From Saxidomus purpurata (lineage: Eukaryota > Mollusca > Bivalvia > Venerida > Veneridae): DNA of 64,000 nt. The position numbers and the translations under genes were made by a program. The DNA lies in assembly GCA_022818135.1 (NCBI GenBank), contig JAFMSR010000016.1, forward strand, positions 43,583,642 to 43,647,641. The letters are read 5' to 3'. Below are positions 5,460 to 57,782 of the stretch, one piece after another (positions within the stretch are counted from its first letter, which is position 1; every line of letters begins with the position of its first letter). The notes below the pieces were generated by a model, which saw only the letters and a list, made by a program, of their open reading frames with translations, did no database searches and was not told where the DNA came from.

Positions 5460-5554
5460 TAAAAACAAAAATAATATCAAACAGGGAACGCCACGTACCA
5501 AAAACGCAGCCTCCCCAAAACGAGCCCCACAGCACCCAGAAGTGCACACCACCA

Positions 5555-5589
<35 letters not shown>

Positions 5590-6021
5590 CACACACAACA
5601 CACACACGCACACAATCATGTACACACACAAACATACACTACCAACACACACAAGCATACAAAGCAAACACACGAGGACAAAACGAACAATTAACGGAAC
5701 ACAGTGGGGCACCGCCTTGGAACGGTCAGTGGCAAAACACCACTGGGGAGCTTAAACCGGTTTATGGTGCGCACCCAACCTCACTCTTACCCCCACCATG
5801 TTCCAAAGTCACAGGACAGTGTAAATAAAAGTAATCCCTGCTAGGTGAATCTCTAACACACGCAATGGAAACAAAAGGCATGGTATGTAAAACACAAAAA
5901 TGCTCGTGTATAAATATATAAAAAAGCAAACCTTGAGAACCAAAAAACGTATGTACTCAATGCATTTGCAGAAGGCAGAGCACCAAGAGAAACACCCTTA
6001 AGGGCCCGACGAATCAGGCCA
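5460..6021 (-). other. Naiad 3' UTR with internal (GT)n tract
   Basis: About 500 bases of this stretch recur in the other orientation at 60320-60833, including the dinucleotide tract (plus strand CA, 5549-5617), the palindrome TAAACCGGTTTA at 5753-5764 and the terminal TTTGATATTATTTTTGTTTT. Because both copies share the tract, it belongs to the element and is not a target-site microsatellite. Confidence 0.8.
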
Positions 6022-6085
6022 GAGGACAGAAATCAAAACAGTTACGTCCCAGTGGGATTTAAAAACTGCCCATCACAGAGTCCTC
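6022..6085 (-). ncRNA. Candidate SECIS element of the Naiad mRNA
   Basis: Read on the minus strand, a lower helix GAGGAC/GTCCTC (6085-6080 with 6027-6022) opens into a small internal loop. Then comes the core, GTGAT on the 5' side and TGATT on the 3' side, which supplies the tandem non-Watson-Crick U-G-A/G-A quartet. Helix II is GGGCAGTT with AACTGTTT (7-8 pairs including G-U). An unpaired AAA follows on the 5' side, about 11 nt above the core, and a mini-stem TCCC-ACT-GGGA caps it, as in form 2 SECIS elements. It starts 11 nt after the presumed stop codon at 6097-6099, inside the 3' UTR, where eukaryotic SECIS elements act. No folding program was run. Confidence 0.65.
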
Positions 6086-6096
6086 CCCCTCTTCCG

Positions 6097-6718
6097 TCAG
6101 ACACAATCAAAGAGGGAAGCATAGCGTCCAACTGTAAACGGGTTGAACACCAAACATGCGGTGTGTCTCAAAACAGTAGGGTCGTAACCTCTTTTAACAA
6201 AACGTTTTATAATTTTAGCAAATACAGTTGGAAAATTGCCATGACCCAAAATCTTACGAAGTTTGTAAACCACATCCCCATAAAAATCGGGTTTTGAAAT
6301 ACCTTCTCGCAGAAGAGTCTTTAGATTACTATTGAATTTCAAAACCAAATCAGAATTACGATAGTAAAATTTAGCAAAATATTTACGCAATTTGTAATAA
6401 CGGTAGCCCTGTTGAAGAAGTTTATTTGTAATATATTGATTACGTTCATTGAAATCCTCAACATGACTACACGCTCTGGCAAACCGAATTAACTGAGAAA
6501 TGTATACCCCATAAGATGTAGCATGAGGTACATCCCCATCCAAATGGGGGAAATTTACAATATTAAAATTAAAATCATCCCTCTTGTCATAAATTTTGGT
6601 ATGTATAATATTGTTATAAATAGAGAGATGTAAATCTAAAAATGAAGCACCAGTATCCAAATTGTTAGTTTTAATTAACTGGAGTTCCCGGGGATAAATA
6701 GTGTCCACCAATTGACCA
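6097..6718 (-). pseudogene. Naiad reverse transcriptase, thumb and C-terminal part
   Basis: Open minus-strand frame following the catalytic box after a frame slip at the A-run 6717-6724. It reads FGQLVDTIYPRELQLIKTNN, then the DTGASFLDLHLSI block, KIYDKRDDFNFNIVNFPHLD, and TSYGVYISQLIRFARAC, typical of the region after the YxDD box in Penelope-like elements, and ends VGRYASLFDCV followed by UGA. That terminal UGA is only about 11 nt from the SECIS-like hairpin, too close for recoding by the usual distance rule, so it probably acts as a stop. Confidence 0.75.
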
Positions 6719-8074
6719 AAAAAACGGGTTATCCATATTAAGAATATCATCCAGATAGCGTGATGTATTATTAAAAGCAGTGATAATGTCTGCCTGCGTA
6801 TCTGGAGAAAGACTCAACATAAAGTCTCTTTCATAACAATATAAAAACAAATCTGCGACAAGGGGTGCACAATTTGTTCCCATGGGAATACCGATTACTT
6901 GTCTGAAAACTGCATTCCCAAACCTTATATAAATGTTGTTCAATAAAAAGGAAAGGGCTTTACAAACTTCGTCACAGGTCCACATAGTATAATGTTTAAC
7001 AATACAGCTAGTAAAAAAAGCTTTATCGAAATTGCAGGCGAGAAATGTAGCATTCTCCCTGGCAAAAGTCTTTTGAATTAGGGCAGTTAGCTTGTCATTT
7101 ATCAAATTATGTGGTAAAGTGGTATACAGAGTAGAAAAATCGTATGTACTGACTGAAGTTACTTTGTAATTATTAACTTTAAACTTATCCAGGATTTCGC
7201 CAGAATTTTTGATCGACCAAAATAAATGTTTACCAGAGTTTTCGTATACTTTATCACAATATCTTTTCACGTGGGCTTTTATAGCAGTTAGGCAAGATGT
7301 TAATAGTTTTGAAATATTTGTAGTGGTACAAGAGCTTGAATTAGCGATGAAACGAGCTTTATATGGTTGTTTATGTAATTTAGGAATCCAGTACATAGTA
7401 GGAAGTTTAATATGTTGATCATCTATACGAACTTTCAAATTAGAAACTTCACTGATGTGATCAGTGACCACATTTTGTTCAACGGAAGGACTCAATATAT
7501 AAGCTTTAGTGCTATTTAGTTCGTTTTGTAAAACATTAATATAATGTAGGCGTCAAATGATGATAATATTGTTGGCCGCCTTGTCTGCTGGAACTAAGAC
7601 ATACTTAGAATGAAATTCTTGGATTTCCTTTTTCAGATGTCTTAAAGTAAACTTGGGTTTTGATGGAAGTAGGTGTTCATTTGTTTGGTAAAATTTTATA
7701 CGAGAATCGACAATGTTAGAAATACTTCGTTTCCAAGACGTTAATGCATTTGGATCAGCATTCTCACGACGACACCATTTAACACAAAAAGTTTCGATAG
7801 ATTCTGCAATATGACCACGACAAGCATGAAAATTAATAGTAGAAGGAATTCTGTATTTTGGTCCTTTAAAGAATAAATTACGAATACGCTTGTCTTTAAT
7901 AATATCAAAATTACCAGTGATGACATGACCGGCATCTGAATAGCAAAATTTCGAGTTTTTACATTCGCAGTAAGAAGGGGTATTTGTTTGAACATCTAGG
8001 TCGGAAACAATTTTATTGTAATTGAATATAACATTTCTAACAGGTGTTTTATATTTATAACAGATAATAGGAAC
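6671..8074 (-). pseudogene. Naiad CxC linker and reverse transcriptase core
   Basis: From about 8074 the minus frame reads through YCECKNSKFCYSDAGHVITG, the CxC linker (C-E-C), then a conserved 'FHACRGHIAESIETFCVKWC' block and the VPADKAANNIIII segment. Here UGA (7553-7555) stands where relatives have Cys-Arg/Lys. The frame continues through MYWIPKLHKQPYKARFIANS (RT1), STYDFSTLYTTLP (RT3, first catalytic Asp), VIGIPMGTNCAPLVADLFLY (RT4) and RYLDDIL (RT5, catalytic Asp pair). It breaks at 6718 shortly after the box. All catalytic aspartates are intact, so the damage is limited to frame changes. Confidence 0.82.
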
Positions 8075-8880
8075 TTCGGAGTTTCGGAAATACTAAGCAC
8101 AGAATCAATGACACGTCTATCACGAAATATACTGGGCACATCGATGAAGTCAATACCTTTATTAATGAAATGAATTTTAAGAAAATGTCTATTATGATCA
8201 GATTGAGTGTCAATGTGTGGACGGAGAACGTGTTGTGTATAATTTTGGATAAGATATGACACAGTGTAAAACGGATCTGTTTGAATAACGTACTGGTCCG
8301 CTTCCTGGTCTAGTTTTTTAAGAGACTGAATAGATAAAGATGTGAGACGAGAAAGCATTGAATGTCTACCAGAGTTTGAAAGAATTATATCGAGGTCTGC
8401 AACAGAAATATTGACTTTTGATTTACGCTTAATATTACCATTGCGTCTAATTCCATGAGACCTAGATTTACGTTTCCTAATATTTAAAATTGAAAATATA
8501 TCGATATCAGGGTTTTTAGAGATATTACCTTCTTGATAAATATTATCATTTAAGCCCAACGGAAACGGTGACTGTAAATTTTTAATCCATTTGAATTCTG
8601 CTAAATGTCTGGCTTTGATTTTAAAACTAGATGTACAATTTATATCATAGACGATTTGCTCTACTGGCTGAATGGTTACCTGATCAATTGTATGGCCAGA
8701 TTTACGAAAGTGTTGATATAAAAATGTAGTGAACTTTTTCCGACTTCGCATTTTGTAAGAATGCTCGCGGAAACGAATTTTTAAAGATCGCCCAGTTTGC
8801 CCAACATACTGAATACCACAATTGGGTGCGTTTCAAGTCAGTACATAAATCATGTGGGACGTATTTCAATCAACGTCAGA
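8075..8880 (-). pseudogene. Naiad GIY-YIG endonuclease domain with two UGA codons
   Basis: The minus frame reads DVD-UGA-NTSHMIYVLT-UGA-NAPNCGIQYVGQTGRSL and then KIRFREH. MIYV and QYVG correspond to the GIY and YIG strands; the Arg of KIRF and the Glu of LAEFKW match the catalytic Arg and Glu of the fold; PFPLGLND closes it. The CCHH motif universal to Penelope endonucleases is present as two UGA codons (8866-8868 and 8833-8835) plus the His of YQHF and SGHT. A downstream lysine/arginine-rich segment and the RVIDSVLSISETPK block lead to a one-base loss at 8074 that breaks the frame before the CxC linker. Confidence 0.8.
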
Positions 8881-9341
8881 GTAGACCTGTGCGATAAATG
8901 ATTGTAACAACCGCACCTCTTAGCATTGCATTTGTTAATAGAACGGTACCCTCTACATCTCTGCGGAAAATTTGTATGTTTTATTTTATATTTCTTCAGT
9001 ATAGTAGAAGTTAAAGGTGATAGACGAATACGTAGATTATTTCGAAAAACAGCTGGAAAATTAAAATGAGTACGTGGAATATAAAATGACTGTGCAGAAT
9101 GTAGCTTTAAAGGAGAAAGGCAGATAGATGGTGTATGTCTTAAAAAAGTACTGTTGTTATTAGGCAGATGTACAGATGATGCAGAGTGTAACCGAAGAGG
9201 TGAAAGAATTAATTTCGGAACTATATTATATGTACTCATGTAATGTAATTTTGTAATACCATTCTGTGAAAAGTGGCGTTCGGGTAGAAAAGTCATCAGT
9301 ATCAATTCGTCAAGTGAAAATGTTAAGCGACAATTAAACAC
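8850..9341 (-). pseudogene. Naiad N-terminal region
   Basis: Open frame of about 160 codons with no ATG at its upstream end; the first in-frame methionine is in MTFLPERHFS. It contains a loose repeat, LSPLRLHSA and LSPLKLHSA with a third LSPLTSTI, and ends in a Cys-rich knuckle (NKCNAKRCGCYNHLS). The knuckle is where the endonuclease should begin, but the frame runs out at 8850 while the endonuclease continues in another frame from about 8880. Comparison with the family layout suggests that residues were lost at this point. Confidence 0.6.
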
Positions 9342-9540
9342 AACCTGGTTAATCGCGCTGGAGGTCGCAATAGGACGGGATAACTAGCATGGACCCGAAT
9401 CCCAGTGAACACAGAACCTTCAACACGGTATAAAATACTCCTCATCTTGACAGAAGCCGAGGGTTTAGAACGAATAACAATCCCTGAAGGATGAAAATAT
9501 AACAACATTGATTGAATGTACGGGGAGACTAACCCTAACC
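9342..9540 (-). other. Naiad 5' leader and junction
   Basis: A 61-codon open frame overlaps here but shows no domain, so I treat it as leader. The outer edge carries two telomere-type repeats (plus strand CTAACCCTAACCCTTAA, 9529-9545) exactly where PIF1-like coding of opposite orientation begins. Confidence 0.45.
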
Positions 9541-9549
9541 CTTAAGACA

Positions 9550-10118: not shown

Positions 10119-10680
10119 ACTTTAATCTAAACTTTCGTAAAACCTTTATAGTACACACCGTCGCTAGAGCGGTTGAATTTGGCGCCAGGTGAGATGATAA
10201 TAACAATTCCTGTATTCGTAAGCGCAATTTGGTGTCCGGCTCAAAACTGCGCTAATACACGACCGGGAGCTATTCGACATCAACAGTAACCAGCTCCAAA
10301 ATACAGGTAGTTTTTGAAATTTGTGTCGGTTTTCTTATGAAAATGAGAATGTCAGCTCCAACGACTTTGTGTACGAACAGGTAAACATATAGACTACTGA
10401 TAGGCACCGGTAAGTTTTCGTAAGGTGTAATGTGGATTCTTGAAATGCATCGTGAATTGAACGAAGTAGTACTTTTTCCACCATTGGAGTCTGGTATCTT
10501 GTGGTTTATAGAGACATATAGTGAAAAAAAAAATTTTTTTTAATGTTTCCGTTGAGTGACTAAACCTGTTCAGTGTGTATACTGAGTTCTTATAGTATGT
10601 GAATATGAAAAAAAAAATACAAGATAGACACAATTGGGCCAGAATCGCTCTCCTGAACCCAAGTGTCTGTGATTATGATC
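10119..10680 (+). repeat. Right arm of the ~560-bp inverted repeat
   Basis: Reverse complement of 1976-2535 with few differences. The plus frame near 10630-10660 reads WARIALLNPSVCD, as in the other arm, and the two sequences part after about 10680. Confidence 0.75.
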
Positions 10681-11127
10681 TGCGTTTGCACACTTCATTT
10701 CAGATGACATTACTTGTTGTTATTTCGTTTGCCTGGAGATTTCGAGCTTCTCATCTTTCGAACAGAGTTTGTGTAGTAATGAAAATGTCGAAATTTTGTT
10801 GAATTTGCCTTCACCAAGAAATAGCCATATTTTATCAAGTTTATTGAACAAATCTATTTTTTCACCTTCACTTTGATAGTTATAAACAAGAATTCCCCTG
10901 ATCTGATTTTTACTTCTTTACGTTTTCCATTTCTTTCTCTACGGGCTTCTATTGAGTCAGACGGGTATTTTTTTCATTTCTTGAATCGTTTCATCACGCT
11001 TCCTTTTTATTCCACGATTTTTTTTGATATTTTCCATTTTCCGAAATTTACAAACTTTATTTCAAACCTTATACAAAGAGCAATGTTTTGAACAATGTTT
11101 AATTCTGTGATATTGTTGTACAATAAT
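10681..11127. other. T-rich unassigned stretch
   Basis: Pyrimidine-rich plus strand with no gene-like frame. Nothing recognised. Confidence 0.3.
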
Positions 11128-14660: not shown

Positions 14661-15500
14661 CATTTTAGCTCTACTGGACGACGTGTAGCGGAGCTTATGC
14701 CATGGTGGTTTGTCCGGATGTCCGTCTGTCCGTACATGCACAGTAGACATTATGGGGTTAGGGTTTGAGTACAACTAAGCATTGTGAAATTCTTTGAGTT
14801 TATTCTGTCAATATGGGGTTAAAAATAGTATTGTCGGGTTAAATAATTGTATTGTGTGGTTTAAAAAGATCAAAGAAAGATCAAAGGGATAACCTCTCAA
14901 AGTCCGTCTGATGAGTACGTCCGTTAAATTTTTCTTGATAACGCTCTACAGGTCGCAATATTTATTTGACTTTAATAAAAACAAACATAATATCAAACAG
15001 GGAATGCCACATACCAAAAACGCAGCCTCCCCAAAACGAGCCCCATAGCCCCATTAATAAAACTTGCTGATAAGGATTCCTGCAACTTGTAAATGTTCTC
15101 TATTGGTTTTGGGGTCAGTGAGTTAATGGTCAAGGTCACAGTGACTTCGGATAGCAATTCCTTGATAACACTCTACAGGTCACAATTTTCATTCAGCTTT
15201 CATCAAAATTGATCAGAAGGTTTCCTGTAATATGTAAATGATTTCTATTGTTTTCTGGGTCAGTGTGTAAAAGGCTTTACGTGTCTCAGTTTTCTTTCAA
15301 CTTTTATCAAACTTGCTCAAAAGGTTTCCTGTAATATTTAGATGTTCATTAACAGCGGGCCAAAGGTCAAGGTCACAGTGACCTCCGTTAGATTTTCCTT
15401 TATAACGCTCTACGTATCCCAGTTTTCATTCAACTTTCATCAAACTTGCTCAAAATGTTTCCTACAACATGTAGATGATCCGTCTAGTTATTTGTTAAAG
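14661..15500. repeat. Bivalve 'GGTCAAGGTCACAGTGACC' repeat, interrupted
   Basis: Starts with TAGCTCTACTGGACGACG and a GTCCG/GTCTG tract. It holds several diverged units of about 150-170 bp with 'CTTGATAACGCTCTACAGG', 'CATTCAACTTTCATCAAACT' and 'GGTCAAGGTCACAGTGAC'. A 73-bp Naiad 3' scrap is inserted at 14981-15053. Confidence 0.65.
14981..15053 (-). mobile_element. 73-bp Naiad 3'-terminal insertion with 9-bp target-site duplication
   Basis: The segment matches the Naiad 3' terminus (compare 5462-5533). It is flanked on both sides by TTAATAAAA (14972-14980 and 15054-15062), and removing it restores the host repeat's reading. Confidence 0.8.
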
Positions 15501-55005: not shown

Positions 55006-56106
55006 TTAAAATAGATGTGTTTGTCCTAAACGTATCATGTTAATAAATTCAGTATCATTTGTATCCATTTTCCTGCAGTCATTTGGCGTGACCGTAAACT
55101 CCTTTTCCCATATTGAATTAGGTATAACAAATATTGAGTTATTGTCAGAATTAGAACAAAAAGAATTGACCTTTTGCAGAATGTCTTTAAAATGTTTTAG
55201 TTCAGTCTTAAACATCGGACCAGCGCTTTTTATCTTTTTGTCAAGTTCGGTGGAAAAGTAATAGTAAATCTGATAATCCAAGAAAGAAGTATTTTTCAAT
55301 TTTTCCATCAACATATAATCAACAGTCACTGCTTCATGCTCGTGAACATTCATCCTCTTATATAAAATATCTAAGAAAGACCAGTTGAGAAGCCTTCTAA
55401 GTAAAAGAAGAGATTCGTCAAATTTTTCTAAGATCAAAACTAAAAGGATTTCTGAGTTCACTTTATCTAGGTACTGTTTTATTTGTACAGTATCGAAGAC
55501 TGTGAAAGGTTCCGTGAATCCAAAATACTTCGCCATAAGATTACGAGTGGGTGAAAAGTATCCTTTGTCGTACTTTTCTGAATTTTCAAGCAAATTTTTA
55601 ATATAATCATTCCTTGGGACTTTTTCTAGGTATTTAGAATGCACGATATCTCTCATGTAGTATGCAGCACTAATAAACCTTTCATATGGATCTCGAATTA
55701 ATCCAATTGTTATAGAGTCCTTTGAGGGAAATTGTTTGAAGAAATTAGAATTGTAAACAGTATGGATAGCAAATATATCATAATGTTCTGCCTTGCTTAA
55801 CAAATAATTTTGCTCTCGCTTATCAACCACATAACTAGAGTTAGGAACATAAATGCTTAAGTTGTTTTTAATTCCAAACCTAAACAATATATTTTGTAAA
55901 GTAGATGATCCAGTTTTAGGTACTTTCAGATATGCTAGATGCAAAGTCATATTACAATGCTCCGAGCTGCATGTCTCCTGTGGCTTATCATATGACTTCC
56001 ATATATGTTTGGTTTTGTTATAGCCATTGGTACTCAAAGTGTATGCTCCGAAGAGAAAAACTAAGAATATAAAAGCTGACCTTCTACGTCTTTTTGTTCG
56101 GAGCAT
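55006..56106 (-). CDS. Galactose-3-O-sulfotransferase-like protein (Gal3ST family), single exon
   Basis: Intact 366-residue frame starting at ATG 56106-56104; the open frame extends 11 codons further but without an ATG. It is a Golgi type II membrane protein by layout: basic LRTKRRRRS, then a hydrophobic anchor at residues 11-24 (AFIFLVFLFGAYTL), then a lumenal domain. The PAPS 5'-phosphosulfate loop is LKVPKTGSSTLQNIL (60-74, Lys64), and the 3'-phosphate block is IGLIRDPYERFISAAYYM (134-151). Possible N-glycosylation sites are NKT 30, NMT 52, NLS 82 and NSS 89. Length and motif spacing fit the galactosylceramide/galactose 3-O-sulfotransferases, which transfer sulfate from PAPS to C3 of terminal galactose on glycolipids or glycoproteins. 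The acceptor cannot be told from sequence. No coding intron, no break. Confidence 0.88.
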   Translation of the reverse strand: MLRTKRRRRSAFIFLVFLFGAYTLSTNGYNKTKHIWKSYDKPQETCSSEHCNMTLHLAYLKVPKTGSSTLQNILFRFGIKNNLSIYVPNSSYVVDKREQNYLLSKAEHYDIFAIHTVYNSNFFKQFPSKDSITIGLIRDPYERFISAAYYMRDIVHSKYLEKVPRNDYIKNLLENSEKYDKGYFSPTRNLMAKYFGFTEPFTVFDTVQIKQYLDKVNSEILLVLILEKFDESLLLLRRLLNWSFLDILYKRMNVHEHEAVTVDYMLMEKLKNTSFLDYQIYYYFSTELDKKIKSAGPMFKTELKHFKDILQKVNSFCSNSDNNSIFVIPNSIWEKEFTVTPNDCRKMDTNDTEFINMIRLGQTHLF

Positions 56107-57782
56107 AAGTATACATTCAGTTTTATCAGCAAGGTACAAAAATAACGTTTTTACTATTTCTGTTACAACTTCAAGTCTGTTTTAAGTTTCCCAAAACCAT
56201 ATGTCCATGGATCTGTCCCTATCGCTCTTGAACTAAGAATGTGCCGCTGCCACAGTATATACACAATGCTGACGCAAACATTTCAGCAATACTTACTGCT
56301 ATTGTGTTATAAGATGTTCAATACTTCACTCAAGTACTGCATATGTTATTGATTAATTGCTGTTCATGATACGAATAGAACTTCAGATGAATCAGGGGAC
56401 TAGAGAAGAGAATTACTTCATTTTATTTAATCTATTCTTTTTAAACAGGGTGTTTACAAAAAAATTGTTTGTAAGCAATCTAAGCAAAAACTTTTTTTCC
56501 GTTTTTTATATTACATTTATCTAAAATATATCATTGTTACGCCCACATTGTTTAACTTCAACAGTCTCCCTGCAGTTCAAACAAACTTGTCAGGTTTGTC
56601 ATAACCTTTAGAAAGTTTTGATTTGAATAATCAATTGAACATAAAAACCTATCCATAAAAGATGTTGAGTCTTTATAATTTAGTAAAGCTTCCATGTATC
56701 AAAAATGTGTTGTTTCATATCAAAAGAAAAGAAGTAAGCAAAGATTTAAAATGGGACAAATAAGTTTTGCAAATGCCAACATGAATGTGTTCACTTTTTT
56801 ATCTTTTTATGTTGACATTAGTATAAGTTCAGCTGAGTAAAGATGTGGCAAGAACAGCACAATGCTTCATGGTTGTTTACAGTGATTTTCCGCATTCCAC
56901 AGAGAGCAGTTAATCATTTATTCAATTAGGCAAACTAATCTAGATTATGTGATGAAAAGTAGAATTCTATTTTGTTCCAATTCCTGTGAGAGTGTAAACT
57001 TAGCAATTTTTAATTTAACGAAACTGCTGTAAACAGATCAAACACTTAAGACAGGAGACAAAACAAAATACCGGTTAGGAAAAGAAAAACAGTAAACTCC
57101 GCAGACAATACCTGGAATAACTTGCTTGGACACATTTACAACTGATCAATGTAGACTAGTAAACTTTATTTCATTATAAATTATCCGGTAATTTCAAGAT
57201 ATATTACGGTACTTTTAAAGCTTTAAGTTCATCATCGATAATGAAATAAAACAACATTGCTGATTGGGTAAACACTTATTTGCCTTTAAACAAAGGATTT
57301 CATTGGATTATGCAACCTTTAAACTTGTTTTTTCCATCGCTAGCCAATCATTGATAGTTTGTCCACCTGAGTAATATAAATACACGTTTTTACTGATAAA
57401 TGGGTAGTTGGGTTACTGGTCACTAAGGTTAGTGCCATTACAAGACTAAGTCTCGTAATTAATACTGGATCTAGTCTTACATAGATTCTAATATATTGGA
57501 ATATTTACAATTCAATAGAAATAAAATATCATTGAATATATAACACAAAATAAATGTACTATCAGCAGAGATTGTTGTTGATTATTTAGTGTATGGGTAT
57601 ATTAAAACCCTGGTGTCCTAGAATACGCTAAACGAGAATATCTGACCATTTTATGTCCGTCTGTATGTTGCATAAACAAAACGACCATTGGACGATTGTG
57701 ATCAATTTGTGTCCGTAGCAAAGTGCGGTGCTTCTTGAACTTATTACACTATTACATTGGTGCCGTGGCCAATTAGTAGCAT
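56107..57782. other. 5' flank of the sulfotransferase and anonymous sequence
   Basis: No clear TATA box or initiator chosen. 57.1-57.6 kb has AT-rich text only. Confidence 0.35.

Follow-up and report, generated by a model that had tools for sequence, protein, structure and literature searches.

The window, that is, the whole 64-kb stretch of DNA analysed here, carries on its minus strand, at about 9530-5461, a damaged copy of a Penelope-like retrotransposon, a member of a high-copy Naiad-type element whose endonuclease-reverse transcriptase protein, intact elsewhere apart from in-frame UGA codons, is very probably a selenoprotein with three selenocysteines. Translation of these UGAs as selenocysteine is itself a likely prediction made from sequence. 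The features concerned are as follows (window coordinates; RT, reverse transcriptase; ORF, open reading frame):

5461..9530, minus strand: the Naiad-type Penelope-like element itself, in a damaged copy; delimited by alignment with 40 genomic copies, 5' junctions and a common 3' end
8901..9383, minus strand: open N-terminal stretch in frame 0, ending in the motif CNAKRCGC (translation, 109 homologues)
8096..8898, minus strand: GIY-YIG endonuclease region in frame 2
8866..8868, minus strand: first UGA, endonuclease column c11; TGA in 39 of 39 scorable copies, stop for 68 of 109 homologous ORFs
8833..8835, minus strand: second UGA, endonuclease column c22; TGA in 39 of 40 copies and TTA in one, 116 of 120 homologous ORFs beginning past c22
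6738..8092, minus strand: CxC linker and RT in frame 1 (translation, 3083 homologues)
7967..7969, minus strand: codon of the first Cys of the CxC linker, column c42; TGC in 38 of 38 scorable copies, stop for 60 of 104 homologous ORFs
7553..7555, minus strand: third UGA, RT column c180; TGA in 36 of 37 scorable copies and CGA in one, stop for 37 of 104 homologous ORFs
6100..6734, minus strand: C-terminal part of the RT protein in frame 2, last residues FDCV (translation)
6097..6099, minus strand: terminal stop codon, UGA; TGA in 36 of 36 scorable copies
6023..6084, minus strand: match to the full SECIS_1 model with E 0.00092 and 32.8 bits, the cutoff being 35; most copy loci score 38.7 bits
60319..60824, plus strand: 5'-truncated copy with the same 3' end as the element, 96.5% identical to 5461-5955
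14976..15053, minus strand: short 3'-end copy of the element, 93.7% identity
53239..53289, minus strand: short 3'-end copy of the element, 96.1% identity

In translation, the domains of the window element follow each other in the order GIY-YIG endonuclease, CxC linker, RT, and the presumed MSTYN start lies inside the N-terminal stretch (8901..9383). By alignment, 44 bp present in the other copies spanning that place are missing at 8881/8882, and two further frame changes are found near 8093 and near 6735; because of the deletion and the frame changes, the window copy itself can hardly be able to work. Its 5' end is about 44 bp shorter than that of the longer copies, and its 3' end is common to three truncated copies within the same window. 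At the 5' junction the element adjoins TAACCCTAACCC (9530-9541), equal to two telomere-like units, an arrangement that is suggestive and may be due to chance; Penelope-like RTs are related to telomerase. Two further observations were made in the surrounding sequence: an inverted pair of about 560 bp, 98% identical, flanks the element (1971-2535 and 10119-10682) and probably belongs to another repeat family, and a 391-codon open frame at 55006-56181 on the minus strand resembles, by eye, a membrane-bound sulfotransferase.

The putative assignment to the Naiad type is by domain features, these being a GIY-YIG endonuclease located upstream of the RT, a CxC linker (SYCECKNSKFC, at about 7975-7943, also present in relatives) and the catalytic YLDD of the RT, which occurs in frame as SRYLDDIL. 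The Pfam GIY-YIG and RT models gave no match to the window pieces, and Foldseek on its own gave none at E <= 0.001; a relative (P0063) does match Pfam RVT_1. Columns c11 and c22 are presumably the Cys pair of the endonuclease CCHH motif: both presumed Cys columns are UGA, and the His residues are kept in alignment A2. Several copies are tandem with pseudo-LTRs, a partial 3' end being fused directly to a 5' end. No hammerhead ribozyme was found at the Rfam gathering cutoff in 20 copy loci, for which SECIS_1 alone was listed.

The first-pass annotation had read the endonuclease frame as DVD-UGA-NTSHMIYVLT-UGA-NAPNCGIQYVG and placed a third UGA after NNIIII. Both readings were reproduced on the minus strand, where the endonuclease frame runs SDVD-UGA-NTSHMIYVLT-UGA-NAPNCGIQYVG and the RT frame AANNIIII-UGA-RLHYINV, with the UGAs at 8868-8866, 8835-8833 and 7555-7553 and neither TAA nor TAG at any of the three points. 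It had also proposed that genomic copies be collected and each UGA column scored. The genome of the window (1.135 Gb) was searched with the endonuclease piece (150 scored of 416 candidates) and 40 copies were fetched, taken from about ranks 1-86 of the matches, where identity is 98-100%, and from the larger contigs, for which reason the sample leans to well-kept copies. Leaving aside cells that were not covered (one copy at c11, three at c180, two at c42 and four at the terminal stop), UGA characterises the family at each of the three sites, with TGA in 114 of the 116 scorable cells; the opposite pattern, TGC or TGT as the family state with UGA in the window copy alone, was absent from the 40 fetched copies. 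Elsewhere in the frame only eight stops (five TAA, one TAG and two TGA, each occurring singly) were found in 38,588 codon cells, and in seven of the 15 copies inspected out of the 40, a frame of 1,062 codons running from MSTYN to the terminal UGA is interrupted by nothing but the three UGAs. Variation between copies is biased towards silent changes (391 non-silent and 230 silent, corrected ratio 0.46). Genome-wide, the flanks of c180 were matched at 530 places with any codon allowed between them, and TGA was found in 100 out of 100 among the matches listed. One apparent open frame of 1,867 amino acids among the genomic copies was rejected, because it runs through an assembly gap that had been taken for open sequence.

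Among the copies of this young family, the three UGA sites show no greater constancy than the remaining codons, 2 of the 116 cells being changed. Selection on them is therefore argued from distant homologues, and the case rests on breaks shared across families, on exchange with Cys and on the SECIS. Protein database queries returned 3,083 matches for the RT piece (best 120 used), 273 for the endonuclease piece (best 120 used) and 109 for the N-terminal piece (all used), and because gene callers end ORFs at UGA, the columns at which homologous ORFs break carry information. Among the N-terminal homologues, 68 of 109, the reference P0243 included, stop exactly at c11, while P0274 and P0346 read through c11 and stop at c22. 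The residue at c11 is R in P0274, L in P0346 and W in P0219, and Cys was not found there in any homologue examined (the 109 N-terminal matches and the best 120 of 273 endonuclease matches). From the same best 120, 116 endonuclease homologues begin after c22; P0145 and P0179 begin two residues upstream of it and both have Cys at c22, P0219 has W at both c11 and c22, and the N-terminus of P0221 is unrelated. When the endonuclease homologues were placed on the RT piece, which was possible for all but 16 of the 120, the 104 placed ORFs ended at c42 in 60 cases, at c180 in 37 and elsewhere in seven.

In the RT homologues (best 120 of 3,083), c180 is occupied by C in 44, by W in 18 and by other residues in three (n=65), a further 44 of the 120 begin within columns 181-206, and c42 is W in seven and C in two (n=9). 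Exchange of C and W was not seen at the other family Cys columns of these 120 homologues, apart from one stray W at column 377, and W at the break columns probably represents UGA that was translated under table 4. In a tree built from 110 RT rows, 97 of which have a known label, Cys versus presumed UGA at c180 needs at least five changes, two of which are forced by well-supported branches. Column c42, which is TGC in the window family, may likewise be a further recoding site in relatives. UGA thus corresponds to Cys of homologues at the second and third sites and, as presumed UGA of relatives, at c42; the first-pass claim of Cys in relatives at all three UGA columns is supported for sites 2 and 3 and, in the homologues examined, not supported for site 1. 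The family of P0129 was not found in the genome of the window, the 100 scored matches being copies at 62-64%.

Downstream of the frame, 12 nt past the terminal UGA, begins the match to SECIS_1 (6084-6023), the sole SECIS listed in the whole window, with an E value of 0.00092 when 4.6 kb is searched and of 0.013 over the entire window. The window copy is under the Rfam cutoff, its hairpin differing from the commonest form by one substitution, whereas the cutoff was passed in 19 of the 20 copy loci scanned (L010-L029); the alignment of L023 stops short of the SECIS part. Among 41 copies the 95-nt stretch around the SECIS exists in 12 distinct forms, and variation amounts to 0.31% in the SECIS, 0.63-0.66% in the three frame stretches and 0.76-1.8% in the remaining 3' UTR. 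The fold of the SECIS of one intact copy is modestly better than that of shuffled sequences (z -1.96, with 9 of 200 as good), and with longer flanks the window copy reaches a z of -3.5. When the whole genome was searched with the Rfam model, 41 matches reached E <= 0.001 (150 scored of 31,687 first-look candidates), and all nine of the matches picked and fetched contain sequence of the window element. The host genome also has five tRNA-Sec matches over the cutoff. The endonuclease-RT is likely a selenoprotein because its UGAs are fixed, relatives have Cys at two or more of these sites and a hairpin matches SECIS; the first-pass proposal that this copy descends from a selenoprotein-encoding Naiad lineage thus gains support from the family-wide UGA, the Cys exchange and the SECIS.

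Among the alternatives, the one that survives best, though we regard it as very unlikely, is that the UGAs act as programmed sites of termination or readthrough, by which the proportions of truncated and full-length protein are controlled, some other amino acid being inserted: UGA readthrough is known in other systems, and three low-efficiency UGAs would give truncated products either way, but it is Cys that is the exchange partner at these columns and a SECIS match accompanies nearly all of the scanned copy loci. A shade less probable again are ordinary nonsense mutations, either in a decaying copy or in one dead master multiplied by helpers. The window copy is plainly damaged and the copies of one young family would have inherited changes in common; against this, families that differ by 40-60% have stops at these very columns, c42 and c180 alone end 97 of the 104 placed endonuclease ORFs, further stops within the family are rare and scattered, and a SECIS lies downstream of the stop. 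Random decay of the frame was rejected on the basis of the codon counts and the homologues. A host code in which UGA means Trp or another amino acid throughout is practically negligible and was rejected, since the W seen at these columns in some homologues can be put down to table 4 prediction, while UGA is also the terminal stop, conserved Trp columns of the element are Trp under the standard code and tRNA-Sec matches are present.

Under the selenoprotein reading, a single mRNA would carry one SECIS and three UGAs, and SECIS-bound host factors would make codons 140, 151 and 578, numbered from the presumed MSTYN, specify selenocysteine; the first two lie in the endonuclease, the third in the N-terminal portion of the RT. 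UGAs too close to a SECIS are not known to be recoded, and the terminal UGA, 12 nt ahead of the SECIS, would serve as the stop because it is too near for recoding. Relatives would have one more selenocysteine, in place of the leading Cys of the CxC linker. In the endonuclease, selenocysteine would stand where the Cys pair of the CCHH motif is presumed to be, and it may there serve in redox control, in the binding of metal or in the cutting of DNA; for a nuclease to have selenocysteine at two presumed metal ligands would be chemically odd.

What had been a suspicion based on one broken copy has thus become a strong argument that an enzyme of a retrotransposon retains UGA at fixed sites, where it most likely encodes selenocysteine and where relatives switch between Cys and UGA site by site. 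The SECIS would in addition tie the activity of the element to the selenium supply of its host. A 45-nt core of the SECIS, with up to three mismatches, was found at 1,414 + 1,363 = 2,777 genomic places (0 for the reversed control), some of which lie in truncated copies and in tandem 3' ends without a frame of their own; with so many places matching the SECIS core of one family, the origin of new SECIS elements becomes testable. It is conceivable, and in our estimation unlikely, that the retrotransposon acts as a dispersal vehicle for SECIS elements across the genome. Were this true, the element would be the genome's principal source of SECIS elements, its insertion into 3' UTRs of genes that end in UGA or contain one in frame could create new host selenoproteins, and its expression could drain the selenocysteine machinery. 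As a separate observation, one 5'-truncated copy (L056) starts right at the SECIS, which consequently stands in foreign sequence without a frame; its core is of the ATGA form.

Relatives of the element were also looked for outside the host. Scanning of viral contigs confirmed none, and plasmids and phages gave no match to the element. The scan of genome_contigs yielded one distant relative (L001), in which the third UGA site is TGT and Rfam finds nothing at E <= 1. This sequence (positions 1-2600) is a distant Penelope-like RT in a single open frame; its contig bears the label of a gammaproteobacterial MAG, and the frame also carries what resembles a ubiquitin-specific-protease domain.

With regard to known systems, canonical Penelope-like elements have a C-terminal endonuclease, and a hammerhead ribozyme is present in an Anolis element (PMC11167929). 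Like the window element, Penelope/Poseidon and Neptune as described there combine an RT with a GIY-YIG endonuclease and occur in tandem with pseudo-LTRs; they differ from it in that the endonuclease of the window element is N-terminal and that no ribozyme reached the Rfam cutoff in the 20 loci. A literature search for papers on Naiad selenoproteins found none by title or abstract start, among the matches listed. Naiads of clams and spiders reportedly encode selenoproteins with several selenocysteines; multi-selenocysteine Naiads have already been published, and the window element joins this known group. Like it, the clam and spider Naiads reportedly have an N-terminal GIY-YIG endonuclease, a CxC linker, an RT, a high copy number and several in-frame UGAs. 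New here are the codon counts over 40 copies, the site-by-site differences between Cys and UGA, including c42, which is TGC in the window family and a stop in relatives, and the genome-wide SECIS count. Selenoprotein P similarly combines several UGAs in one frame with a SECIS in the 3' UTR; unlike it, the window element is mobile and high-copy, encodes an endonuclease and an RT, and has its SECIS 12 nt past the stop.
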